The position numbers and the translations under genes are program-made. A DNA stretch of 35,686 nucleotides. Origin: Rhodospirillaceae bacterium. GTDB taxonomy: Bacteria; Pseudomonadota; Gammaproteobacteria; Steroidobacterales; Rariloculaceae. The stretch lies in NCBI GenBank assembly GCA_024640685.1, contig JAHEEN010000011.1:1-35686 (forward strand). Direction: 5' to 3'. The notes under the pieces are model-generated. The model was not told where the DNA came from and ran no database searches. It was given only the letters and a program-made list of their open reading frames with translations. Positions 1 to 34,234 of the stretch are shown piece by piece (position 1 is the stretch's first letter; each line of letters opens with the position of its first letter).

Positions 1-794
1 CGCACCCACGGATGCGGCTCGCCCCGTCGCCGCTCTGCCAGAAGCTCGGCGCGCTCGAACAGCGTCGGCGCCCCGTACGGCGTGATGTCGTAGTGATTGA
101 CGATCTGCACGTCGATCTCCGAGCCTGCCATCGCCTTGATACGCTCGCAGTCGGCGATGAACTCGCGAACGATATCGGGCTCATCGATGCGCAGCGCCGT
201 GCCGCCGTGAAAGTACGCGTTATGGCGCGTACCGTTGTCGTAGACCGGGAACTTGAACGATGTCGTGCCTCGCGTGTGACCGGGCGTGATCTCGAACTCG
301 AGCGTCAAGTCGCCGAGACGCAGCGTATCGCCTTCCTCGATGACGATATCGCGCGGTGGCGCGTAGTCGCCAAGGTCCGCCTCGATCATCTCCCAGTCGG
401 CCTCGGCGGCTCCCCACTGAACGTCGAGAACGTCCTTGAGCGCGACCGCGCCGCGATAGTGATCGCGGTGGCCTTGCAGAATCAGCACGTAGCGGATATC
501 GCGAGGCCGCAATCCGACCTTGCGGATGTTGTTTAGCAGGTACTCGAGATATCCCGGCAGATCGTACATCGTATCGATCAGGATGTGGCCTTCGTCGGTT
601 GTGATCACGTAGCTTGCGACCTCGCCTTGACCGACGAAGTAGAGGTTGTCGAACACTTGAAACGGCTCTCTCGCCATCGTCGAGAGGTCGTTGCGCGGCG
701 AGACGCGGCTCGGTGTCGGTTGGGCGGTCGCTATGCTCAGCGATACTGTCAGGGCGATGCCGGCAACGGCCGTCGCAAGTCGGAGTCTGCGCAT
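1..794 (-). CDS. Secreted metallo-beta-lactamase-fold hydrolase, subclass B3-like (partial, C-terminus beyond window)
   Basis: Reading the minus strand from ATG at 794: MRRLRLATAVAGIALTVSLSIATAQ...FQVFDNLYFVGQGEVASYVITTDEGHILIDTMYD...RYVLILQGHRDHYRGA...EFEITPGHTRGTTSF. Has a signal peptide and MBL motifs (QGHRDH, PGHT). Open to the window edge, so absent from the ORF track. Confidence 0.85.
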   Translation of the reverse strand, partial: MRRLRLATAVAGIALTVSLSIATAQPTPSRVSPRNDLSTMAREPFQVFDNLYFVGQGEVASYVITTDEGHILIDTMYDLPGYLEYLLNNIRKVGLRPRDIRYVLILQGHRDHYRGAVALKDVLDVQWGAAEADWEMIEADLGDYAPPRDIVIEEGDTLRLGDLTLEFEITPGHTRGTTSFKFPVYDNGTRHNAYFHGGTALRIDEPDIVREFIADCERIKAMAGSEIDVQIVNHYDITPYGAPTLFERAELLAERRRGEPHPWV

Positions 795-12609: not shown

Positions 12610-13443
12610 CTATTGATCGTCGCTGCTCAAGGCCCTGAATCGGGCCAGGTGACGGGCCGCGCGCTCGCGATCGCCGCGCCAGCCGTAGAGGCGGGCGAGG
12701 TTGTAGTGCGCATCCGGTAACGATGGATCGAGATTGAGTGCGTTGGCGTATTGCTCGATCGCTGCGTCGTTGGCGCCCTGGTCCTCGAGTACGACACCGA
12801 GATTGAACGCGGCGATCGCATGGCTAGGCTCGCGCTCGAGCGCGGCCCGGTAGCATGCCTCGGCTTCCGAATGATGCCGCGCAGCGTGCAATAGACGGCC
12901 GAGATTGATGCGTGCGTCGACGCAATCCGCATCGATCCTGATCGCTCTGCGATACGCGTGCATCGCGTCCTCATCGAGGCCTTGGCGGTCGAGCTTCAGC
13001 CCGCGTGCAAACCAATAGTCCGCAGAATGCGTCGCGACGACCGTTGCGGTGTTGGTCTCGGCCTGTGTGCCGCTAGCCGTGCTCGGCGAATCGATCGCTG
13101 CGAAGTCGAACAGCGCCTGCCCCGATTCGGGCTCCCAGCTCGTGTTGGCGTCGCGAACCAAGATGCGTCGATGCGCGCATACGACTCGAACCGAGCTCAA
13201 CGGGCGCTCGGCCGGCAATACGGCGCGCAGTGCGCGCAACGCGCGCCAGATGCGGCGGACATCGACTGCGCGATTCTCGAGCGCTTTCGCCGAGCGCAGG
13301 AACACCAGATCCTGAAATGAGAAACGCAGTCGGCCGTGCGATGTTTTCGATGGGGAGACGATGCCGGCACGCGCGGCCGCGCGAACGCGTTCTTGGGATT
13401 CGCCGACGAGACCGGCGACCTCTCGGGTGGAGTAGGCCCGCAT
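12610..13443 (-). CDS. MerR-type helix-turn-helix protein with C-terminal TPR repeats
   Basis: N-terminal YSTREVAGLVGESQERVRAAARAGIVSPSKTSHGRLRFSFQDLVFLRSAKAL (MerR-like HTH). C-terminal TPR units: DEDAMHAYRRAIRIDADCVDARINLGRLL, SEAEACYRAALEREPSHAIAAFNLGVVLEDQGANDAAIEQYANALNLDPSLPDAHYNLARLY. Confidence 0.8.
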   Translation of the reverse strand: MRAYSTREVAGLVGESQERVRAAARAGIVSPSKTSHGRLRFSFQDLVFLRSAKALENRAVDVRRIWRALRALRAVLPAERPLSSVRVVCAHRRILVRDANTSWEPESGQALFDFAAIDSPSTASGTQAETNTATVVATHSADYWFARGLKLDRQGLDEDAMHAYRRAIRIDADCVDARINLGRLLHAARHHSEAEACYRAALEREPSHAIAAFNLGVVLEDQGANDAAIEQYANALNLDPSLPDAHYNLARLYGWRGDRERAARHLARFRALSSDDQ

Positions 13444-15722: not shown

Positions 15723-15803
15723 CGCGATCGGCGCCGTCCAGTCGGCTTGAAACGCCCCACGATTTCGGGTCGAATCGGGCCGTCAAGCGCTGCGGGAGAT
15801 CTC

Positions 15804-17348
15804 ATGCGACTCGTCTTGTCACTGATAAGCCTCTTTGCCGCCGGTAGCGTCGCTGCGCAGGATGTGCCGCGCGCGGCCAGCGGCCGACCCGATCTTCAAG
15901 GCATCTGGCAGGTCGTCGAGCGTGCTGGTTACGATCTCGAGGCGCATGCGGCGCGGCACGACATGAAGGCTGGCTTGAGCGTCGTCGATGGCGGGGAGAT
16001 TCCCTATCAGCCGTGGGCCGCCGCGCAGAAGGCCGAGAACTTCGCGAGCCGCGCGACGGCCGATCCGCTCGCGAGCTGCTATCTCCCGGGCGTGCCGCGC
16101 GTCATGGCATTGGACTATCCGTTCCAGATTTTTCAAACGGACGATCAGGTCGCCCTCACGTTCGAGTGGCAACAGGTGTACCGCTTGATCTACGTTTCCG
16201 ATGAGCCATCGCCATATGCGGGCGTTGAGTCGTGGATGGGCCATTCGCGTGGACGTTGGGACGGCGACGTTTTCGTCGTCGACGTAACTGACCAAAACGA
16301 TCGCACGTGGCTCGATTCGGCCGGCAACTTTCATAGCGCCGCAATGCAGGTCACGGAGCGCTTTCGTCTCGAGGATTCCGATACCCTCGCCTATGAGGCG
16401 ACCATCGACGATCCGGACGTATTCACGCGCCCCTGGACCCTGCGGCTGACGATGAAGCGCCAGTCGCACGGCGATCGCCTTCTCGAATATCAGTGTCAAG
16501 CCGAGAAAGAAGAGGCCAACGGCGCGTTCGAGCGCGACGAGCGCACGTGGTATCCGGCGCCCGTGCCCGATGACGGTGTCGCCTTCGACGCCGATGCCGG
16601 CATCGATCTGCCGTTGCCTGCCGCGGGCGAGGATGTCCGCCGGCTGGCCGACGGCACGCCCGACATCAGCGGCTGGTACATGGCTGACGGTGGCGGCGCC
16701 AACTACGGGCTCGAGGCGCATCCGGGGCACGAGCTCTTGCCGCCGAGTCGTGGTCACGTTGTCGATCCGGCCGACGGGACGTTGCCGTACCGCACATGGG
16801 CGCGCGCCGAGCGCATCGAGCGCGAAATGCCTTATCGAGGCTACGACGACCCGACCGCGCATTGCTTCGTCGCGGGACTGCCGCGTTCGCACTACGTGCC
16901 CGCGCCGTTTTTCGTCGTGCAGACGCCGACGCACGTCGTGTTCCTGCACGAGCGCATGGCTTGGCGCCTGATCAGGCTCGACGGCGAGTTTCTTCCCGAT
17001 ACGATTCGCCTGTGGCAAGGTGACTCGATCGGCCGCTGGGAAGGCGACTCGCTCGTCGTCGAGTCGCGAAACTTCAACGGCAAGGCGTGGCTCAACGAGA
17101 CTGGTGACGTCATCAGTCACATGGAGACGCTGGTCGAGACCTACACGCCCGTTAGTCCGACGCAGGTCCATTATCGGGCCACGGTCACCGATCCGATACC
17201 GTATACGCGGCCGTGGACGATGGAGATGCCATTCAATCACATGGACGATGAATTGCTCGAGGTGGCCTGCCTCGAGGACAACAACGATCTACAGCATTTG
17301 AAGGACGTTCGCGACGAGCATCGCGCGAGCCAGAATCAAGGAGACTAG
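15804..17348 (+). CDS. Secreted protein with two tandem copies of an uncharacterised domain
   Basis: Signal peptide MRLVLSLISLFAAGSVAAQD, then two homologous units: RPDLQGIW...IPYQPWAAAQK...DPLASCYLPGVPR...IFQTDDQV...GHSRGRWDGDVFVVDV...WLDSAGN and TPDISGWY...LPYRTWARAER...DPTAHCFVAGLPR...VVQTPTHV...GDSIGRWEGDSLVVES...WLNETGD. Confidence 0.75.
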   Translation: MRLVLSLISLFAAGSVAAQDVPRAASGRPDLQGIWQVVERAGYDLEAHAARHDMKAGLSVVDGGEIPYQPWAAAQKAENFASRATADPLASCYLPGVPRVMALDYPFQIFQTDDQVALTFEWQQVYRLIYVSDEPSPYAGVESWMGHSRGRWDGDVFVVDVTDQNDRTWLDSAGNFHSAAMQVTERFRLEDSDTLAYEATIDDPDVFTRPWTLRLTMKRQSHGDRLLEYQCQAEKEEANGAFERDERTWYPAPVPDDGVAFDADAGIDLPLPAAGEDVRRLADGTPDISGWYMADGGGANYGLEAHPGHELLPPSRGHVVDPADGTLPYRTWARAERIEREMPYRGYDDPTAHCFVAGLPRSHYVPAPFFVVQTPTHVVFLHERMAWRLIRLDGEFLPDTIRLWQGDSIGRWEGDSLVVESRNFNGKAWLNETGDVISHMETLVETYTPVSPTQVHYRATVTDPIPYTRPWTMEMPFNHMDDELLEVACLEDNNDLQHLKDVRDEHRASQNQGD

Positions 17349-24088: not shown

Positions 24089-24769
24089 TCAGTCGATCGC
24101 GAAGCAATAGAACAGACCCACGCCGCCCCAGCTCTGCAGCGTCGCTTGGCTGCAGCCGTCGGTCGCATGTGAGGAGTTCCACGACGTGTTGCCGTTGCCG
24201 GCACGATCGGAATGGCCGGCCTGCGCAGCGCCTTCGCCGTTGCTCGTCCAGTTATTGCAAGTCCGATCCTCACCAGGTGGGAACGCCGTGCCGTCGGGTT
24301 GCGTGCCGGTCAAGATATCGTGGCGCATCGGCAGCGGATCGCCGACGCCGTTGATCATCTCGCCTTTCTCGGTCAGCGTGTAAAGCTTGAACATGTTGCT
24401 GCCGCGCTGCGCCTCGAGCAGCGTATCGCCGTGAATCTCCGATTTGATCAGCGGTCGGTCACTGCGTCTGACGGCCGAGTACCATGGTCCGTCGCCAATC
24501 CTGTCGCGCGCGCTGACGCCCGGCTGACCCGGCCGCGACTGCGTGCTCAGATAAGCGCGCCACGTACGCTGGCCTTCGCCAGCAGCTGCGGCCAAACGTC
24601 GACAATGGGCATCGGCGCCTTCGAGGCCGCCGAGGTTACCGCCGTCACCGATCGGCTCGCTGGTGACGAAGAACGTCATCGGCGCCTCGTTGTTGTTCTG
24701 CGCTAACACCGGCTGTGTGAACGCGATTACCGCTGCGAACGCGACTACGGGGATCGTCAGTTTAGTCAT
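24089..24769 (-). CDS. Secreted lectin-like (DUF1554-like) protein, copy 1
   Basis: MTFFVTSEPIGDGGNLGGLEGADAHCRRLAAAAGEGQRTWRAYLSTQSRPGQPGVSARDRIGDGPWY...SWNSSHATDGCSQ...LFYCFAID; signal peptide. Confidence 0.7.
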   Translation of the reverse strand: MTKLTIPVVAFAAVIAFTQPVLAQNNNEAPMTFFVTSEPIGDGGNLGGLEGADAHCRRLAAAAGEGQRTWRAYLSTQSRPGQPGVSARDRIGDGPWYSAVRRSDRPLIKSEIHGDTLLEAQRGSNMFKLYTLTEKGEMINGVGDPLPMRHDILTGTQPDGTAFPPGEDRTCNNWTSNGEGAAQAGHSDRAGNGNTSWNSSHATDGCSQATLQSWGGVGLFYCFAID

Positions 24770-24781
24770 CGCGGCCGGCCC

Positions 24782-25546
24782 TCAGTCGATTGCAAAGCAA
24801 TAGAGCTGGCCGATGCCATGCGTCAGCACGAGCGCGTACTGACTGCAGCCGCGGGTGCCATGGGACGAGTTCCACGAGCCATTGCCACCGCCCATCCGAT
24901 CGGTAAAGCCGATCTGGACGTTGGGCCGCCCTTCGCCGCCGTACTGGCGTGGCGCGCTTTCCTCGGGGTCGGCATTGCTCGTGTAGTTGTCGCAGGTGTA
25001 GTCGATATCGGGCGGAAACGCCGTGCCGTCGGGCTGCGAGCCGGTCAGGATCTCGTGGCGATTGCTATACGGCGTGCTCTTCGCGTAGTCCCAATCACGC
25101 GAATGAGGGCTCGGAAAATCGCCTAGACCCGGCACGATCTGGCCTTTCTCGGTCAGCGCCGTCTGTTTCGTCAGGTTATTGCCGATACGCGCTTGCTCGA
25201 TCGTGTCGCCGTGCAGATGCGCAACGTCGCGCGCGATCATCTCGCCGTTGACGTTGTGCCACGGGCCCGCGCCAATCCGGTCGCGGGCATTGATCGCCGG
25301 GCGACCGGGGCGTGCCTGAGTGCTCAGGTAGGCATGCCACGTGCGGTGTCCGGCGCCGACGTTCGTAGCGAGCCGCTGGCAGTGCGCGTCGGCGCCTGCA
25401 AGACCACCGAGATTGCCGCCGTCGCCGATCGGCTCGCTGGTGACGAAAAACGTCATGTGCGACTCTGGCGCGCCTTGGGCCGCAGCGCTGGCAGACAGTG
25501 TCAGCGCGCATGCGGCGGCCGACATCAAGACGAAGGATTTGATCAT
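24782..25546 (-). CDS. Secreted lectin-like (DUF1554-like) protein, copy 2
   Basis: MTFFVTSEPIGDGGNLGGLAGADAHCQRLATNVGAGHRTWHAYLSTQARPGRPAINARDRIGAGPWH...SWNSSHGTRGCSQ...QLYCFAID; tandem paralog of 24089..24769. Confidence 0.7.
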   Translation of the reverse strand: MIKSFVLMSAAACALTLSASAAAQGAPESHMTFFVTSEPIGDGGNLGGLAGADAHCQRLATNVGAGHRTWHAYLSTQARPGRPAINARDRIGAGPWHNVNGEMIARDVAHLHGDTIEQARIGNNLTKQTALTEKGQIVPGLGDFPSPHSRDWDYAKSTPYSNRHEILTGSQPDGTAFPPDIDYTCDNYTSNADPEESAPRQYGGEGRPNVQIGFTDRMGGGNGSWNSSHGTRGCSQYALVLTHGIGQLYCFAID

Positions 25547-25654: not shown

Positions 25655-26563
25655 TCAGTAGCCGCGGCCATGGACGAAGTTGGCGATCCACTCGAGTCCG
25701 GTTGCATCGCGGCCGATTGCGTTGAGCCCGTCCAGCACGGCGCTGTGAAGTGCCTCCGCGCGCTCACGCGCGGCTTGGACGCCGAGCAGCGACGGGTACG
25801 TCGACTTATCGTTTTCGGCATCGGATTGCGCGCTCTTCCCAAGCGTCGCCGTGTCGTGATCGACCTCCAGAAGATCGTCGCGGATTTGGAACATCAGGCC
25901 GATGTCGCGTGCGATTTGCTCGAGCGACGCACGATCTCGTTCGCTGGTTGCTGCGAGCTCGGCCGGCATCATGATCGACGCACAGATTAGTTCGCCGGTC
26001 TTGCGCCTATGGATATCCTCGATGCGCGGTTCGTCGAGGGTCTGTCCTTCGGCTTGCAAGTCGAGCATCTGCCCGCCGACCATGCCGGCAGGACCGGACG
26101 CCCGCGCGAGCCACTTGATGACTCGCATCTGCGCGACTGGGTCAGCGCCTAACGCTTCGTCGCCGCACAGAAGCTCGAACGCGAGCGCCTGCAGACCGTC
26201 GCCTGCAAGTATCGCTGTGGCCTCGTCGAATGCGCGGTGCGTTGTCGGTCGCCCGCGACGCAGATCGTCGTCGTCCATTGCTGGCAGATCGTCGTGAACG
26301 AGTGAGTACGCATGCACGAGCTCGACTGCAGCAGCAATTGCATCGAGGGGCTCTAGCGCAACGTCGAACATCTCCCCGGTTGCATAACACAACAACGGTC
26401 GAATGCGTTTGCCGGGACCGAGTACCGAGTACTCGATCGCATCGACGAGACGGGGCGGTATCGCGCGTCGGTCGCGCAGCTCGGTCGCGAGTTTCGTCTC
26501 GACGCGCGCCCGATACGGCTCGACGCGATCGGAAAATTTTCGCCGATTCTCGCGTGCTATCAT
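25655..26563 (-). CDS. ispA: Polyprenyl (farnesyl/geranylgeranyl) diphosphate synthase
   Basis: VHAYSLVHDDLPAMDDDDLRRGRPTTH (first Asp-rich motif), GLMFQIRDDLLEVD (second), GPGKRIRPLL. Confidence 0.93.
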   Translation of the reverse strand: MIARENRRKFSDRVEPYRARVETKLATELRDRRAIPPRLVDAIEYSVLGPGKRIRPLLCYATGEMFDVALEPLDAIAAAVELVHAYSLVHDDLPAMDDDDLRRGRPTTHRAFDEATAILAGDGLQALAFELLCGDEALGADPVAQMRVIKWLARASGPAGMVGGQMLDLQAEGQTLDEPRIEDIHRRKTGELICASIMMPAELAATSERDRASLEQIARDIGLMFQIRDDLLEVDHDTATLGKSAQSDAENDKSTYPSLLGVQAARERAEALHSAVLDGLNAIGRDATGLEWIANFVHGRGY

Positions 26564-26619
26564 GATGACCCATCCTAACACCGATCCCACGTGCATCGCG
26601 TCGCGCTGGGACAGCCCAT

Positions 26620-27702
26620 ATGCACCGAGACCGTGGCGACTTGAAGGCCGATTTCGAGTTCCAAGCCGCGATCCTGCCGCACGTTTCGCGAACGTTTGCG
26701 CTGACGATTCCGGTGCTGCCGGGTGGGCTCGCCGATACCGTGGCCAACGCTTATCTTCTGTGCCGTCTCGCCGACACGATCGAAGACGACGCGGCGCTCG
26801 CCAGCGAGCAGAAGTCGGCGTTTCATGCCCGACTGACCGCTGTCGTGCAAGGCGACGCCAATGCTTGTCAGCTCGCGGCGGATCTCGCGCCGCTGCTTTC
26901 GGCCCGCACGCCGGATGCGGAGCGGCAGCTCGTCGAGAACATCGACCGTGTCGTGCGGATTACGCAGTCGTTCGCGGAGCGAGATCGCGGGGCGATTCTC
27001 CGTTGTCTCGACGAAATGTGTCGTGGCATGCCAGTGTTCCTGCGCCAGCGCAGTTTGAGTGGGCTCGTGGACATGGACGCGATGTCGGCTTATTGCTATG
27101 TCGTCGCAGGCGTCGTCGGTGAGATGTTGACCGAGCTCTTCTGCGCGCATCGTTCCGCCGTCGCACCGCTGCGACACGAGCTGATGCGACTTGCGCCTTC
27201 GTTCGGACAGGGCTTGCAAATGACGAATATCCTCAAGGACGTCTGGGAGGACCGAACGACGAGCACATGCTGGTTGCCACGCTGCGTATTCGGCGCAGGC
27301 TTCGATCTTGCAAAGCTCGAGGACTTGTACTCGACGCGCGCGTATCGCGAAGGCATCGAACGCTTGATCGGCATTACGCATCGACATTTGCGCAACGCCG
27401 TCGATTACGCATTGTTGATTCCGAGGCAGGAGCCTGGGCTGCGACGTTTCTGCTTGTGGGCCATCGGTCTCGCCGTGCTGACACTGCGCAAGGTTCGGCG
27501 GCAATGCGATCGCGAAATTGGCGTGCGTATCAAGATCTCTCGACGAACGGCCGGCATCGCCGTTCGGACGATCGATAGAATTCACGAGCGCGACCGGCTA
27601 CTGCGAGGGGTGTTCGGCTTGTCTAGCGTCGGGCTGCCGTTGGTTACCGAGCGAGCCTTTCCGGCGTTCGGCTCCGAGTTGTTGCACGGGCAACTCGATT
27701 AG
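26620..27702 (+). CDS. Squalene/phytoene synthase family protein
   Basis: SRTFALTIPVLPGGLADTVANAYLLCRLADTIEDD, YCYVVAGVVGEMLTELF, GQGLQMTNILKDVWEDR...CWLPR; C-terminal ALLIPRQEPGLRRFCLWAIGLAVLTLRKV. Confidence 0.9.
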   Translation: MHRDRGDLKADFEFQAAILPHVSRTFALTIPVLPGGLADTVANAYLLCRLADTIEDDAALASEQKSAFHARLTAVVQGDANACQLAADLAPLLSARTPDAERQLVENIDRVVRITQSFAERDRGAILRCLDEMCRGMPVFLRQRSLSGLVDMDAMSAYCYVVAGVVGEMLTELFCAHRSAVAPLRHELMRLAPSFGQGLQMTNILKDVWEDRTTSTCWLPRCVFGAGFDLAKLEDLYSTRAYREGIERLIGITHRHLRNAVDYALLIPRQEPGLRRFCLWAIGLAVLTLRKVRRQCDREIGVRIKISRRTAGIAVRTIDRIHERDRLLRGVFGLSSVGLPLVTERAFPAFGSELLHGQLD

Positions 27703-27752: not shown

Positions 27753-28724
27753 ATGAGAGCCACTGCTCGAGCGCGAGCGAACATAGCGCTCGTGAAGTAT
27801 TGGGGAAAGGCGGACGCCGGGCTCAACGTGCCCGCCGTAGGGTCGCTGTCAATCACGCTCGATAGTCTCCATTCCGAAACGTCGGTCGAGTTCGAGCCTA
27901 CGTTGGAGTGTGACACGCTGACTCTAGACGGTCAGGCCGATGCCGCTGCGTTGGAGCGTGTCACGGCCTGCGTCGACCTGTTGCGCGAAAGCGCCGGCAT
28001 AGCGACGCGAGTGCGTGTCGTCAGCCGCAACAATTTCCCAACTGGTGCCGGACTCGCATCGTCGGCATCGGGGTTCGCGGCGCTCGTGGCGGCGGGCGCC
28101 GCGGCGCTGGATCTATCGATATCGCCGCAGGCGCTCAGTATTCTCGCGCGCCGTGGCTCGGGATCTGCGGCGCGCTCGATATTCGGCGGTTACGTCGAGA
28201 TGCATGCCGGCTCGCGCGACGACGGCAGTGACAGTTTCGCCGAGCCGTTGCTCGAGGCTGCGGCCTGGCCGTTGCGCGTCGTCATTGCGATCACGTCGCG
28301 CGATCGCAAGCGCGTAGGGTCGACCGCCGCAATGGGCGTGACTGCTGCGACTTCGCCTTACTATCCTGCATGGTTGGCGACGAGCGCGGCCGATATCGAC
28401 TCAGCCAAGTCTGCAATCGGCGATCGCAATGTCGCTGCGCTCGGCGCGATCGCCGAAAGCAGTTGCCTGAAGATGCACGCGCTTGCGATGTCGAGCTCAC
28501 CGCCGATCATCTACTGGAACTCAGCGACGATTGCGTGTATCGATGCGGTCAGAGCGCTGCGCAACGATGGCGTCGGCGTCTTTTTTACGATCGACGCAGG
28601 ACCGCAGGTCAAGGCTGTCTGCGTGACGGAAGACGCTGCGACCGTTGCTGACGTATTGCGCGAGATTCCCGGAGTCGTCGACGTCATTGAGACGGGGCTC
28701 GGCGCCGGCGTCGAGATCTGCTGA
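27753..28724 (+). CDS. mvaD: Diphosphomevalonate decarboxylase
   Basis: ANIALVKYWGKADAGLNVPAVGSLSITLD, FPTGAGLASSASGFAALV, RRGSGSAARSIFGGYVEM, FFTIDAGPQVKAVC. Confidence 0.95.
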   Translation: MRATARARANIALVKYWGKADAGLNVPAVGSLSITLDSLHSETSVEFEPTLECDTLTLDGQADAAALERVTACVDLLRESAGIATRVRVVSRNNFPTGAGLASSASGFAALVAAGAAALDLSISPQALSILARRGSGSAARSIFGGYVEMHAGSRDDGSDSFAEPLLEAAAWPLRVVIAITSRDRKRVGSTAAMGVTAATSPYYPAWLATSAADIDSAKSAIGDRNVAALGAIAESSCLKMHALAMSSSPPIIYWNSATIACIDAVRALRNDGVGVFFTIDAGPQVKAVCVTEDAATVADVLREIPGVVDVIETGLGAGVEIC

Positions 28725-28728
28725 GCGA

Positions 28729-29727
28729 ATGACAGTCGTCGCGCGAGCACCCGGCAAGCTCGTCGTGCTCGGCGAATATGCTGTGTTGACTGGTGCTCAG
28801 GCCTTGGTCATGGCCGTCGATCGGTATGCCGTTGCGACGATCGACGGGTCTGCGGCTGCCGACTGCACGCTAACAACGCATACGGACGTCTCGACAACGA
28901 CAGCATTTGCGCCGGGCGAGCGCAGCGGTGCCGCGCTCGTCGATCTCGTGAACACGCACTGGCCGGCACGCGCTGCCGGCGTTTGGACTGGTAACCTAGA
29001 CAGCAGGCAGTTGTTCGCGGACGGCGGCAAACTCGGGCTCGGCTCCAGCGCAGCGGCACTGTGTGCGTGGTCGGGCGCATGGCAGGCTTTCAACGGCGCA
29101 CGGCTGCCTGACGCATCCGAGCTCATTACGTTGCATGCGGCGGGCCAGGGCGGCGGTAGCGGTCTCGATGTCGCCGCGAGCCGAGCCGGTGGCATGATTT
29201 GCTATCGTCGCAATCGATCCGCGGGGCCGACGATCGGTTCAGGTCGATTGCCGGACGGTGTAGCATTCGTGGCGATCTCGACGGGGCGGGCGGCATCGAC
29301 GCCCGATCTCGTCCGGCGCTTCGACGCGTGGCGTGCCGCGGAGCCGCAGGCGGCGCTGCTGCGGCTCGAACGCCTCGCCGCGATCGCCGAGACCGGGGTC
29401 GCGGCGGCTCAAGCCAACGCGGCGAGCGATTTCTTGGCCGCGATCGAGCACTATTCCGTGGCCCTTGGCGAGCTAGGACAGGCGATGCATGCAGACATCA
29501 TGACCGACGAGCACCGCGCGATCGCTGCCGTTGCGCGCCGTAGCGGTGTCGTCTACAAGGTCAGTGGCGCCGGCGGTGGTGACATCGGCCTCGCGCTGTC
29601 GGAGTCTTTACCGGACCTGGCTGCGTTCGAAGCGGCGCTTCCGCGCGGCTGCAAAGCGCTGTCGCTCGAGCTCGACCGAGGCGGGCTGCAGGTCCACGGC
29701 AATCCGACAACAGGCGACGGCGAATGA
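28729..29727 (+). CDS. mvaK2: Phosphomevalonate kinase (GHMP family)
   Basis: MTVVARAPGKLVVLGEYAVLTGAQALVMAVDRY, LGLGSSAAALCAW, YKVSGAGGGDIGLAL. ATG at 28729; ATGA overlap with the next gene. Confidence 0.9.
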   Translation: MTVVARAPGKLVVLGEYAVLTGAQALVMAVDRYAVATIDGSAAADCTLTTHTDVSTTTAFAPGERSGAALVDLVNTHWPARAAGVWTGNLDSRQLFADGGKLGLGSSAAALCAWSGAWQAFNGARLPDASELITLHAAGQGGGSGLDVAASRAGGMICYRRNRSAGPTIGSGRLPDGVAFVAISTGRAASTPDLVRRFDAWRAAEPQAALLRLERLAAIAETGVAAAQANAASDFLAAIEHYSVALGELGQAMHADIMTDEHRAIAAVARRSGVVYKVSGAGGGDIGLALSESLPDLAAFEAALPRGCKALSLELDRGGLQVHGNPTTGDGE

Positions 29728-31979
29728 GGATCCCGGAATTCTACAAGCTCAGCATCGAAGAGCGCTTGAAGGCCGTCGGTAAACGCCAATTGCTGGGTCC
29801 CGAGGAGCTCAACGCGCTCGCGACCGGCGCCCATACGCTCGATCTCGAGTCGGCCGATAAGATGATCGAGAACGTCGTCGGCGTCTTCGGCTTGCCGCTC
29901 GGTCTAGGCATGAACATGTGTGTCAATTCCAAGCACTATATCGTGCCTATGGCGATCGAGGAGCCATCGGTCGTCGCGGCGATGAGCTCGGCATCGAAGC
30001 TCGTCGGCGAGCACGGCGGCTTCGAGGCCGAGGCGTCCGATCCGGTGCTGATCGGGCAGGTTCAGGTCGTCGAAGTCCCCGACCTAGAGCGCGCAAAGCA
30101 AGCGCTGCGCGCCAATGCTCGCGAGATCCTCAATCTCGCGAACAGCTTCCACCCGAACATGGTCGCACGCGGCGGTGGCGCGAAGGATCTCGAGCTGATC
30201 GTGCATCCGTTGCCCTCACGCGCGGCGTCTATGCTCGTCGTGCACTTGCTCGTCGATACACGCAACGCGATGGGAGCCAATCTGGTTAACGGCATGTGCG
30301 AAGGCGTCGCGCCACTAATCGAATCGTTGACGGGCGGCCAAGTCTTTCTGCGAATTCTGTCGAACCTGACCGATCGTGCGTTGGTCCGAGCGCGTTGCCG
30401 CATTCCGGTCGACGCTCTTGCCGGACGCGGTTACACAGGGGAGCAGGCGCGTGACGGCATCATGCTCGCAGCGGAGTTCGCCGCGGTCGACCCGTATCGA
30501 GCGGCCACGCACAACAAAGGCATCATGAATGCGATCGATCCGATCGCGATTGCGACGGGCAACGACTGGCGCGCACTGGAGGCCGGCGCGCACGCGTATG
30601 CGGCGCGCGGCGGGCGTTATACGTCTCTGACGACGTGGACCGCGGATGCCGATGGCAACTTGTGCGGGTTTCTCGAGATGCCCGTCAAAGTCGGTATCGT
30701 CGGTGCGCAGCAGGCGTCGAACCCCACGGTCGCACTGAACATGAAGCTGCTCGATGTCGAGCGTGCGACGGATCTCGCCGAGATCATGGCTGCAGCAGGA
30801 CTGGCACAGAACTTCGCAGCCATTCGAGCGCTTGCGACCGAAGGCATTCAAAAAGGCCACATGACGCTGCATGCGCGTAGCGTCGTCACGGCCGCCGGGG
30901 CGCCCGAGGCGGTGTTCGACGACGCCGTGGACCGGCTGATTCAGAGCGGTGAGATCAAGGTCTGGAAGGCACGCGAGATCGTCGCCGAGCTGACCGCAGA
31001 CGAAGGCAGTACCGATACTGCCGCCACTGCGCTCGATACGAGCGATATGAGTGTCGGTTACGGCAAGGTCGTCTTGCTTGGCGAGCACGCCGTCGTCTAC
31101 GGTCGCCACGCGATTGCCGCGCCGATTCCGTTTGCGATTCGCGCGCGTATCGAGGATTGCGACAGCGGAATCCACATCATGATTCCGCGCTGGGGCGTCG
31201 AGTACCAGCTTGCCGAGAATCCGGCCGATCGCCGCTCGTTCGAGCGCGCAGCCGGTGCGATTCTCGACGAGCTCGGCCTCAAGGGCCGCGCGATGCGGAT
31301 CGAGGTGTTTCCGGACGTGCCGCGTGGCATGGGGCTCGGCGGCTCGGCTGCGATGGCGGTCGCGATCGTGCGAGCATTGGATGCTCACTTTCGCCTCGGC
31401 CTGGCCGACGAGCAGGTCAACCGGTTCGCATTCGAGTCGGAGAAGCGCGCGCATGGCAATCCGAGCGGCATCGACAACACGGTTGCGTGCTATGGCAAGC
31501 CGCTGATCTTCAGGACCGGGACGCCGCCGCTCATCGAGCTGCTCAACATCAGCCGTCCAATCGACATCGTCATCGGGATGACCGGAACCGAGGGCCTGAC
31601 AGCCAGCACCGTCGCGAGCGTCGGCGATGCTTGGCAGCGCGATCCAAAGCTCTATGAGCGCATTTTCGATCAGATCGATGGGCTCGTGCTGCGCAGCGTG
31701 CAGGCCATCCAAGATCACGACCTCATCGCGCTCGGCGGCTTCATGAACATCTGCCAAGGCATGCTGAATGCGTTGGGCGTCTCGACGCCGGAGCTCGAGC
31801 GGCTGATCTCGGTCGCACGCGAGGCAGGGGCGTTGGGTGCGAAGCTTACCGGAGGCGGAGGCGGAGGCTCGATGATCGCGCTGTGCGACGGCAACGCGAC
31901 CGAAGTCGCCGATGCAATCAGAGCCCAGGGGTATCAAGCGCTCGGCGTCACGCTTGACGGTGGGCACGATGGAAAATAG
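29724..31979 (+). CDS. Fused class II HMG-CoA reductase :: mevalonate kinase
   Basis: 751 aa continuous ORF. N-terminal HMGR (about 29724-31000): AIEEPSVVAA (Glu), THNKGIMNAID (Lys), ATGNDWRALEAGAHAYA (Asp), KGHMTLHARSV (His). C-terminal MVK (about 31047-31979): GKVVLLGEHAVVYGRHAIAAPIP, PRGMGLGGSAAMAVAIV, GAKLTGGGGGGSMIALC. Confidence 0.94.
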   Translation: MRIPEFYKLSIEERLKAVGKRQLLGPEELNALATGAHTLDLESADKMIENVVGVFGLPLGLGMNMCVNSKHYIVPMAIEEPSVVAAMSSASKLVGEHGGFEAEASDPVLIGQVQVVEVPDLERAKQALRANAREILNLANSFHPNMVARGGGAKDLELIVHPLPSRAASMLVVHLLVDTRNAMGANLVNGMCEGVAPLIESLTGGQVFLRILSNLTDRALVRARCRIPVDALAGRGYTGEQARDGIMLAAEFAAVDPYRAATHNKGIMNAIDPIAIATGNDWRALEAGAHAYAARGGRYTSLTTWTADADGNLCGFLEMPVKVGIVGAQQASNPTVALNMKLLDVERATDLAEIMAAAGLAQNFAAIRALATEGIQKGHMTLHARSVVTAAGAPEAVFDDAVDRLIQSGEIKVWKAREIVAELTADEGSTDTAATALDTSDMSVGYGKVVLLGEHAVVYGRHAIAAPIPFAIRARIEDCDSGIHIMIPRWGVEYQLAENPADRRSFERAAGAILDELGLKGRAMRIEVFPDVPRGMGLGGSAAMAVAIVRALDAHFRLGLADEQVNRFAFESEKRAHGNPSGIDNTVACYGKPLIFRTGTPPLIELLNISRPIDIVIGMTGTEGLTASTVASVGDAWQRDPKLYERIFDQIDGLVLRSVQAIQDHDLIALGGFMNICQGMLNALGVSTPELERLISVAREAGALGAKLTGGGGGGSMIALCDGNATEVADAIRAQGYQALGVTLDGGHDGK

Positions 31980-32529
31980 CGCGGTTGTCTCGAGTCCGGC
32001 GGAGTCGTTGATTCTGGTCGACGATTCGGATCGTGAGATTGGTGCTGCCAGCAAGCACGCGTGTCACGTCGGCGAGGGCACGTTGCACCGGGCATTCTCG
32101 ATTTTCGTCTTCAACAGCGCTGGCGAACTGCTGTTGCAGCGGCGTAGTGCGGATAAGCCGCTGTGGCCGATGTACTGGTCGAATACGTGCTGCTCGCATC
32201 CGCGCGTCGGTGAGACGATGGAAGTTGCGACCGAGCGGCGTCTCGACGAGGAACTCGGCCTAAATTGCCAGTTGCAGTTCCTCTATAAGTTCAAGTATCA
32301 CGCGCCGTACGAAGATCGTGGCTCGGAGCGCGAGTTCTGCTGGGTCTATGCAGGTCGCTGCGACGATGAGCCGACGGTCAACGTCAATGAGATCGCCGAG
32401 TGGCGCTACGTCGGCGTTGCCGATCTCGACGCGGCGCTCGTCGATGCGCCGGAGAGCTTTACGCCGTGGCTGAAGCTCGAGTGGGCGGAGCTGAGGTCGC
32501 GCTTTCTCGACGATCTGCTCGCGGACTGA
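31969..32529 (+). CDS. idi: Isopentenyl-diphosphate delta-isomerase, type 1 (Nudix)
   Basis: ATG at 31969: MENSAVVSSPAESLILVDDSDREIG...LHRAFSIFVFNSAGELLLQRRSADKPLWPMYWSNTCCSHPRVGE...ATERRLDEELG. Overlaps the HMGR-MVK stop by 11 nt. Confidence 0.95.
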   Translation: MENSAVVSSPAESLILVDDSDREIGAASKHACHVGEGTLHRAFSIFVFNSAGELLLQRRSADKPLWPMYWSNTCCSHPRVGETMEVATERRLDEELGLNCQLQFLYKFKYHAPYEDRGSEREFCWVYAGRCDDEPTVNVNEIAEWRYVGVADLDAALVDAPESFTPWLKLEWAELRSRFLDDLLAD

Positions 32530-32554: not shown

Positions 32555-34018
32555 TCAGGTCAGGAAGCGGTAGTACTCGATACCCTCGTCGTGAATCCCG
32601 GGCGTTGCGCTACGGCCGACGTCGCTGACGATGAAGCCTGAGTTCGGCGCCAGCAAGTCGGGGGCGTTACCCGTGTCATGAAGCGTTTCGTACTGTGCTC
32701 GGGTCAGCGACTGATACGGCTCGAGCGTGTTTCGGAACGCGATGCTGCTGGCCGCTTCGGCCCAGCGCTCCGCCACGCGCATCGGGATCGCCTCGGCCGC
32801 ATCGCCACTGCCGTAACCGACCGCCAGTACCTCGCGGCTTGCGATGTCGATCTCCTGCGAAAACGCGTCGTCGAGACCGGCCGCCATCCATGCCGGCAAC
32901 GCTGCGCAGTAAACATTGCCGATGTCCTTCATGACATCGGCGCCTAGCGACAGCTTGTCGGCGACGAGCGCGTTGAACTTAGAGCTGTTTCTGAACTCTT
33001 TAGCAAGCGCGATACTGAGCGGATAGACGTCCGTCTCTATGCTGCCTGTGCGAACGAGTTCTCGTAGGTCTGGCTTTAGCCGCATCTCCGCAAGCACTTG
33101 CTCGACGTCTGTGCGTGCTGCGCGGCAATGCGCAGCGAGCTCTTCACGTCCCGCTTCGCCATTTTTCGCAAGCCCGACCAAGTAGCTCAGCGCGAACGAC
33201 GTCAGCGGCATGCGATGGTAAGGCCGATGCATGAATACTGCGGCGAGGCTGTCGTAGTAGTCGGCCGGCTGACGGTTCATCCGCTGCAACATGTCATCGA
33301 GCGCATGCAGCGTCTGATCGAGATAGCACGTCGTCGAGTACTTGCCGTTGAAAACGGGCAAATCCTGGAAATGGCAGTTCAGCGTGCCACGGATCAGGTT
33401 GCGCATGACGGGCTTGCGAAAGTCGACTGCGCGGTAGTCGGATGCGCTGCCGATATTCGGCAGATCGACCTCTAGCAGGGCGGGGTCCCGCTCGAGCAGC
33501 ATCGCGACGGCGCCCGCGCCTTGCGTCGGCTCGCCGGTGCTGCCGCGCGCGTACTCGGCGATATCGGCGCTGACGACGATCGCGCACGTGTCTTTTCGCT
33601 CCAGCGCGAGGTATCTGAGGCCTTGCTTGAGCGCGTAGATGCCGCCCAGGCATGCATGCTTGAGTTCCGGTACCTCGCAGTTTCGCGATATGCGCGGCAG
33701 GCCCTTGGCCGTCAATCCCTCATCGAGCATGCCCTTGACGATGATTGCGCCGGCGGAGTTGTCGGTGCTCGATTCGGTGCCGAGTCCCAGAAACCCGACG
33801 CGCGCCGGATCGACGTCATACTGCTCGATCAAGCGCATGACTGCGTTGCCGGCCATCGTGTAGACGCTCTCGTCCGGCCCGCGCATCCGGAAGCTGCGGC
33901 CGATGACCGTGCTGGTCTTGTCCCAGGCGGCGCCTGTCCACTGACACCAGTCGGCTAGATCGACGCGGTACGGCGGAAAGTAAGCACTGAAGCCGCTGAT
34001 GCCGATCGGGTTGTGCAT
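32555..34018 (-). CDS. mvaS: Hydroxymethylglutaryl-CoA synthase
   Basis: ELKHACLGGIYALKQGLRYL (catalytic Cys), ADIAEYARGSTGEPTQGAGAVAML, FMHRPYHRMP (His). ATG at 34018; the track start at 34024 is TTG. Confidence 0.92.
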   Translation of the reverse strand: MHNPIGISGFSAYFPPYRVDLADWCQWTGAAWDKTSTVIGRSFRMRGPDESVYTMAGNAVMRLIEQYDVDPARVGFLGLGTESSTDNSAGAIIVKGMLDEGLTAKGLPRISRNCEVPELKHACLGGIYALKQGLRYLALERKDTCAIVVSADIAEYARGSTGEPTQGAGAVAMLLERDPALLEVDLPNIGSASDYRAVDFRKPVMRNLIRGTLNCHFQDLPVFNGKYSTTCYLDQTLHALDDMLQRMNRQPADYYDSLAAVFMHRPYHRMPLTSFALSYLVGLAKNGEAGREELAAHCRAARTDVEQVLAEMRLKPDLRELVRTGSIETDVYPLSIALAKEFRNSSKFNALVADKLSLGADVMKDIGNVYCAALPAWMAAGLDDAFSQEIDIASREVLAVGYGSGDAAEAIPMRVAERWAEAASSIAFRNTLEPYQSLTRAQYETLHDTGNAPDLLAPNSGFIVSDVGRSATPGIHDEGIEYYRFLT

Positions 34019-34234
34019 AGGCAATCGATCCAGCCGCCTACATTCGCGGTCGAGGCGAACGCGGGGACGTAATATTATCGGTGAACGGACGCATTATAGA
34101 GCGAACGCGGGCCCAGCACCTATTTCTGGCCCTCGCGTCAGCGGCGAATACGCCCCTGGCGCGATACGGGCGTAGGTCCGATGGACGAGCCGTCGGGTAA
34201 AATAGCCGTGTCCCAAAGTCTCGGCCCACGACCC

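Follow-up and report, generated by a model that had tools for sequence, protein, structure and literature searches.

A fusion of HMG-CoA reductase and mevalonate kinase, apparently undescribed, is widespread among bacteria

Fusions of isoprenoid enzymes named in the literature that we found are MvaE and IspDF only (PMC10070635, PMC13001223). Enterococcal MvaE is a bacterial two-enzyme mevalonate-pathway fusion with a class II HMG-CoA reductase (HMGR), in which a thiolase lies N-terminal to the reductase and the steps joined are non-consecutive (PMC10070635), while IspDF, commonly present in bacteria as a natural fusion, unites two enzymes of the MEP pathway to isoprenoids and also joins non-consecutive steps (PMC13001223). 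Otherwise, the class II HMGR of P. mevalonii is a stand-alone, NADH-dependent enzyme, and the mevalonate kinases (MVK) of M. mazei, S. aureus and Leishmania are separate enzymes. The locus described here shares with P. mevalonii HMGR the fold, the catalytic Glu/Lys/Asp/His, the flap and approximately 48% identity (structural alignment), and with the stand-alone kinases the GHMP fold and its three motifs, but combines both in one protein, with MVK C-terminal to HMGR, such that, unlike in MvaE and IspDF, consecutive steps are joined. Although the architecture is detectable by any domain scan, no published HMGR-MVK fusion was found in the open-access literature, with prior mention in older key work possible, and a preprint network of 6,924 bacterial HMGRs describes none; a sequence-only reading of the same DNA likewise named thiolase-HMGR (MvaE) as the known bacterial HMGR fusion. 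The fusion is real, widespread and apparently undescribed, and extends the known mevalonate-pathway fusions rather than representing a new kind of system.

The window, the whole stretch of 35,686 nucleotides that was analysed, contains the fusion as one continuous frame with the following parts:

29724..31979, + strand: HMGR-MVK fusion gene, 751 aa, ATG to TAG
29724..31001, + strand: class II HMG-CoA reductase domain, residues 1-426 (TIGR00532, PDB matches; boundary from the predicted structure)
30846-31001, + strand: HMGR C-terminal flap domain, approximately residues 375-426 (predicted structure)
31002..31046, + strand: interdomain linker, residues 427-441, predicted disordered (pLDDT <50 at 427-440)
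31047..31976, + strand: mevalonate kinase domain, residues 442-751 (TIGR00549, PDB matches)

With the ATG at 29724, the TAG ending at 31979 and no internal stop, the single 751-aa frame without frameshift proposed in the sequence-only reading is borne out, as is its linker assignment, which lies near to the linker found here. Both curated equivalog models of NCBIfam exceed their cut-offs on this single ORF, TIGR00532 on the HMGR half with 389.6 bits (cut-off 259.95) and TIGR00549 on the MVK half with 234.9 bits (cut-off 163.05), and Pfam assigns HMG-CoA_red to residues 11-384 (343 bits), GHMP_kinases_N to 507-590 and GHMP_kinases_C to 659-737; a thiolase domain was found in neither the Pfam nor the NCBIfam scan. 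The AlphaFold model consists of two confident domains separated by the disordered residues 427-440 (mean pLDDT 84.7, pTM 0.59). The HMGR half, which starts at the catalytic domain, lacks a transmembrane anchor and carries the flap helices 375-426 in the model, has its best PDB matches in the enzymes of P. mevalonii, Delftia and Burkholderia, and the MVK half matches 2hfs, 6mde, 4hac and 2x7i; among the structure-search matches listed, no solved chain covers HMGR and MVK together. Between close relatives, changes at codon position 3 are approximately 3-9 times as frequent as at position 1 or 2 in both halves, an excess which argues for purifying selection on HMGR and MVK alike.

Residues required for both activities are in place:

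29961..29963, + strand: HMGR catalytic Glu80 (P. mevalonii Glu83), in 107/108 fusions
30150..30170, + strand: cofactor helix H143-P-N-M-V-A-R149, NADPH-type motif, with H in 105/108 and R in 106/108 fusions
30516..30518, + strand: HMGR catalytic Lys265 (P. mevalonii Lys267), in 108/108 fusions
30564..30566, + strand: HMGR catalytic Asp281 (P. mevalonii Asp283), in 108/108 fusions
30858..30860, + strand: HMGR catalytic His379 on the flap (P. mevalonii His381), in 108/108 fusions
31065..31067, + strand: MVK Lys448, motif 1, in 108/108 fusions
31344..31346, + strand: MVK Ser541 in GLGGSAA, motif 2, in 107/108 fusions
31473..31475, + strand: MVK catalytic Asp584 in NPSGIDN, in 107/108 fusions

The four HMGR catalytic positions recognised earlier align with those of P. 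mevalonii, and the claim of a full MVK agrees with the above-threshold family match, the GHMP motifs and the location of Lys448, Ser541, Glu573 and Asp584 at kinase active-site positions; the catalytic residues of both enzymes are kept in at least 106 of the 108 aligned fusions. In HMGRs, the motif (H/Y)xSxxxR denotes NADPH and Dx(V/L)xxxL NADH usage (preprint, PMC13370337), with Asp146, Leu148 and Leu152 as the cofactor determinants of the P. mevalonii enzyme (PMC10070635). Across the fusions the helix reads H-P-(N/R/K)-M-V-A-R, which retains the NADPH-type His and Arg with Asn, Arg or Lys replacing Ser, and in place of the D...L of the NADH-dependent P. mevalonii enzyme. From this helix motif, the HMGR half is predicted to probably use NADPH, which fits a biosynthetic role.

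The fusion belongs to a full mevalonate operon, a context absent from the sequence-only reading, with the neighbouring genes:

25655..26596, - strand: polyprenyl (farnesyl-type) diphosphate synthase, divergent (PF00348, 183.8 bits)
26620..27702, + strand: squalene/phytoene synthase-like gene on the 5' side of the cluster (PF00494, 177.8 bits)
27753..28724, + strand: diphosphomevalonate decarboxylase, upstream in the operon (TIGR01240, 282 bits, cut-off 171)
28729..29727, + strand: phosphomevalonate kinase (PMK)-like GHMP kinase (TIGR01220, 83 bits, below the cut-off of 165.7)
31969..32529, + strand: type 1 isopentenyl-diphosphate isomerase (TIGR02150, 154.5 bits, cut-off 105.8)
32555..34024, - strand: divergent HMG-CoA synthase in convergent orientation (Pfam HMG_CoA_synt_N/_C above, NCBIfam below cut-offs)

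The stop of the PMK-like gene overlaps the start of the fusion by 4 nt (ATGA) and the end of the fusion overlaps the isomerase gene by 11 nt, which suggests translational coupling. Elsewhere in the window, a metallo-beta-lactamase-fold protein with a QGHRDH metal motif is encoded at 3-794 (- strand, cut by the window end), whose top-scoring NCBIfam model, CAR family subclass B3, reaches 143.8 bits and stays well below the cut-off of 500. Further genes encode a TPR repeat region joined to a MerR-type HTH (12610-13443, - strand), a secreted 533-aa protein of two similar halves with no Pfam match (15747-17348, + strand) and a tandem pair of secreted paralogues whose matches to DUF1554 are weak and do not reach the cut-off (24089-25546, - strand).

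A domain search, as proposed in the sequence-only reading, recovered the same architecture in several phyla. In genome contigs and whole genomes, 120 fused loci were detected, of which approximately 106 are distinct, and the architecture occurs in hundreds of bacterial genomes, with counts that are not independent as MAGs are incomplete and genomes phylogenetically related. A strong match, nearly always covering both domains, is present in 184 of 298 genomes of the window's order; 39 of 41 Calditrichota genomes carry the fusion, as do three of 199 Acidobacteriota genomes, Cryobacterium isolates, Dyella monticola, one Planctomycetota MAG and a handful among approximately 195 Myxococcota genomes, most others of which possess separate or adjacent HMGR and MVK genes. 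A first-scan impression of a full-length fusion in Bacillaceae was rejected, as it represents two overlapping genes, and so were apparent internal stops in G038 and G051, which lie past the protein end and leave both fusions intact. That a sequencing or assembly error merged two neighbouring genes could draw on the adjacency of HMGR and MVK genes in Myxococcota and Bacillaceae, and genome G016 (L134:2880-3080) does carry a short deletion with a frameshift where HMGR meets MVK, by which the ATP-site Lys region is gone. G016 has neither a second MVK above cut-off nor Dxr, and the lesion is either an assembly error or a recent loss. An artefact as the source of the fusion itself is nevertheless rejected as next to impossible in view of the approximately 106 distinct fused loci, which include single-contig genomes and isolates such as Dyella monticola and Cryobacterium, and of the fused sequences forming one clade in both domain trees.

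Dependence on the mevalonate route was assessed with Dxr type I as the sole MEP marker. The Dxr model matched in 112 of the 298 genomes of the order, 110 above cut-off and one cut at a contig end. The lists of strong fusion/HMGR matches (184/298) and of Dxr (111/298) share only G904, whose Dxr match is far below cut-off, and G988, while four genomes have neither a fusion match nor Dxr. G988 is the sole order-mate with Dxr and a strong HMGR match, which may be either fused or stand-alone. Exclusion of Dxr (type I) by the fusion is near-perfect in the order, with a Fisher test value of about 5e-78, which, as the genomes are related, is not an independent-sample probability. Among the nearest 59 genomes, 43 have the fusion, 15 Dxr, one neither and none both, and the fused MVK is the only MVK above cut-off in the fusion genomes. 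Since Dxr is missing from the fusion genomes of the order but present in almost all the rest, the fusion seems to be the cell's sole source of HMGR and MVK. Most fusion genomes tested beyond the nearest set are also without Dxr, the exceptions being three Cryobacterium, one Acidobacteriota MAG and a few Calditrichota, so that the fusion usually accompanies loss of the MEP route, judged by this marker.

These observations also bear on a possible role of the HMGR half in mevalonate catabolism, which the name of TIGR00532, a 'degradative' HMGR family, implies and to which the NADH-dependent P. mevalonii, Delftia and Burkholderia enzymes among the closest solved structures would lend some weight. 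Such a role appears very improbable for a gene that shares its operon with PMK, decarboxylase and isomerase and its reading frame with MVK, in genomes where Dxr is absent, and whose cofactor helix is of the NADPH type. The gene is very probably a bifunctional biosynthetic HMGR-MVK enzyme, with both activities deduced from domain matches and conserved residues.

Intact fusions form a single clade in the HMGR tree (SH-aLRT 100) and in the MVK tree (SH-aLRT 96), and the fusion most likely arose once; repeated independent fusions are rejected for the sample, as there is one clade in each tree. Apparent exceptions in the trees are explained by contig ends (L041, L137 and L108) and by the junction deletion of L134. 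In Myxococcota loci L186-L194 HMGR and MVK are adjacent in the same frame with one stop codon between them, and in Bacillaceae loci the two genes overlap, arrangements that plausibly represent the state before fusion. The fusion was probably formed by stop loss between adjacent genes, followed by cross-phylum transfer. Transfer of the fused gene across phyla is indicated by Cryobacterium, which groups with a Salinisphaera MAG in both the HMGR and the MVK tree, and by the Acidobacteriota sequence L230, which groups with a gammaproteobacterial family; misbinning of MAGs could account for single transfer cases, but not for the Cryobacterium isolates.

Whether part of the MVK is made as a separate protein by internal initiation at Met442 (31047) had been raised in the sequence-only reading. 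The Met at the domain junction is indeed residue 442, and its ATG falls exactly where the MVK fold begins. Of 106 distinct fused loci, however, just 20 have an ATG at this codon, with an SD-like sequence upstream in few of these, and many fusions are without any start codon at this position; the window has no SD there, though other operon genes are without SD as well. Production of a free MVK from this site seems very unlikely and is not supported as a general trait of the fusions, and a single bifunctional chain is the preferred reading.

Fusion has proceeded further in one genus of the window's order, in which G041 and G028 encode PMK in frame with HMGR-MVK:

L132:1665-5063 (G041) and L133 (G028), - strand: triple fusion PMK-HMGR-MVK, with PMK reading into HMGR uninterrupted by a stop in both genomes

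The G041 protein has 1133 aa and the two proteins are 96% identical; among the 298 genomes of the order, the triple fusion was found in none besides these two. Internal initiation is possible at the PMK/HMGR junction of G041, where a GTG is preceded by GGAG.

In the bifunctional enzyme, the N-terminal class II HMGR would convert HMG-CoA to mevalonate, probably with NADPH, a reaction of two hydride transfers during which the flap domain of HMGRs covers and uncovers the active site (PMC10070635). The MVK, flexibly tethered to the end of this mobile flap, would then phosphorylate mevalonate with ATP, and the fusion would act as the apparent only HMGR and MVK in a Dxr-less genome. The linker of relatives ranges from approximately 9 to 78 aa (median 22 by alignment), is poorly conserved in sequence and, between close relatives, evolves almost freely at the amino-acid level with the frame maintained. 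Disorder, poor conservation and variable length fit a flexible tether better than a rigid tunnel. The likely benefit would thus be a fixed 1:1 dosage and co-localisation with a high local kinase concentration, whereby the nearby ATP-driven kinase may pull the reversible HMGR reaction forward and limit loss of mevalonate; we infer this advantage of tether and proximity. Channelling, a possibility raised in the sequence-only reading, would here mean direct handover of mevalonate from the reductase site to the kinase site via a structured interface. It would be in line with the consecutive steps, with the single origin retained and kept in many lineages and with a few residues that set the fusion clade apart, namely Asn333, Trp414 where the flap ends and, in MVK, Trp490 and Arg534. 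A disordered linker of such variable length, a pTM of 0.59, which gives no fixed domain arrangement, and the free diffusion of a molecule as small as mevalonate make this handover doubtful, and the flexible tether is favoured. A bolder and similarly doubtful scenario makes the fusion the core of a natural single-chain mevalonate metabolon, in one genus PMK-HMGR-MVK, that might lead from HMG-CoA to mevalonate 5-diphosphate with measurable channelling, and whose one-time formation might have helped lineages to drop the MEP route.

Control of the mevalonate pathway usually acts at HMGR and MVK, and an old, natural and transferable fusion of the two provides a test of whether tethered consecutive enzymes improve flux, as well as a candidate part for terpenoid engineering. 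The fusion marks most of one gammaproteobacterial order and nearly all sampled Calditrichota as apparently mevalonate-only, which bears on the predicted sensitivity of these groups to MEP inhibitors such as fosmidomycin.
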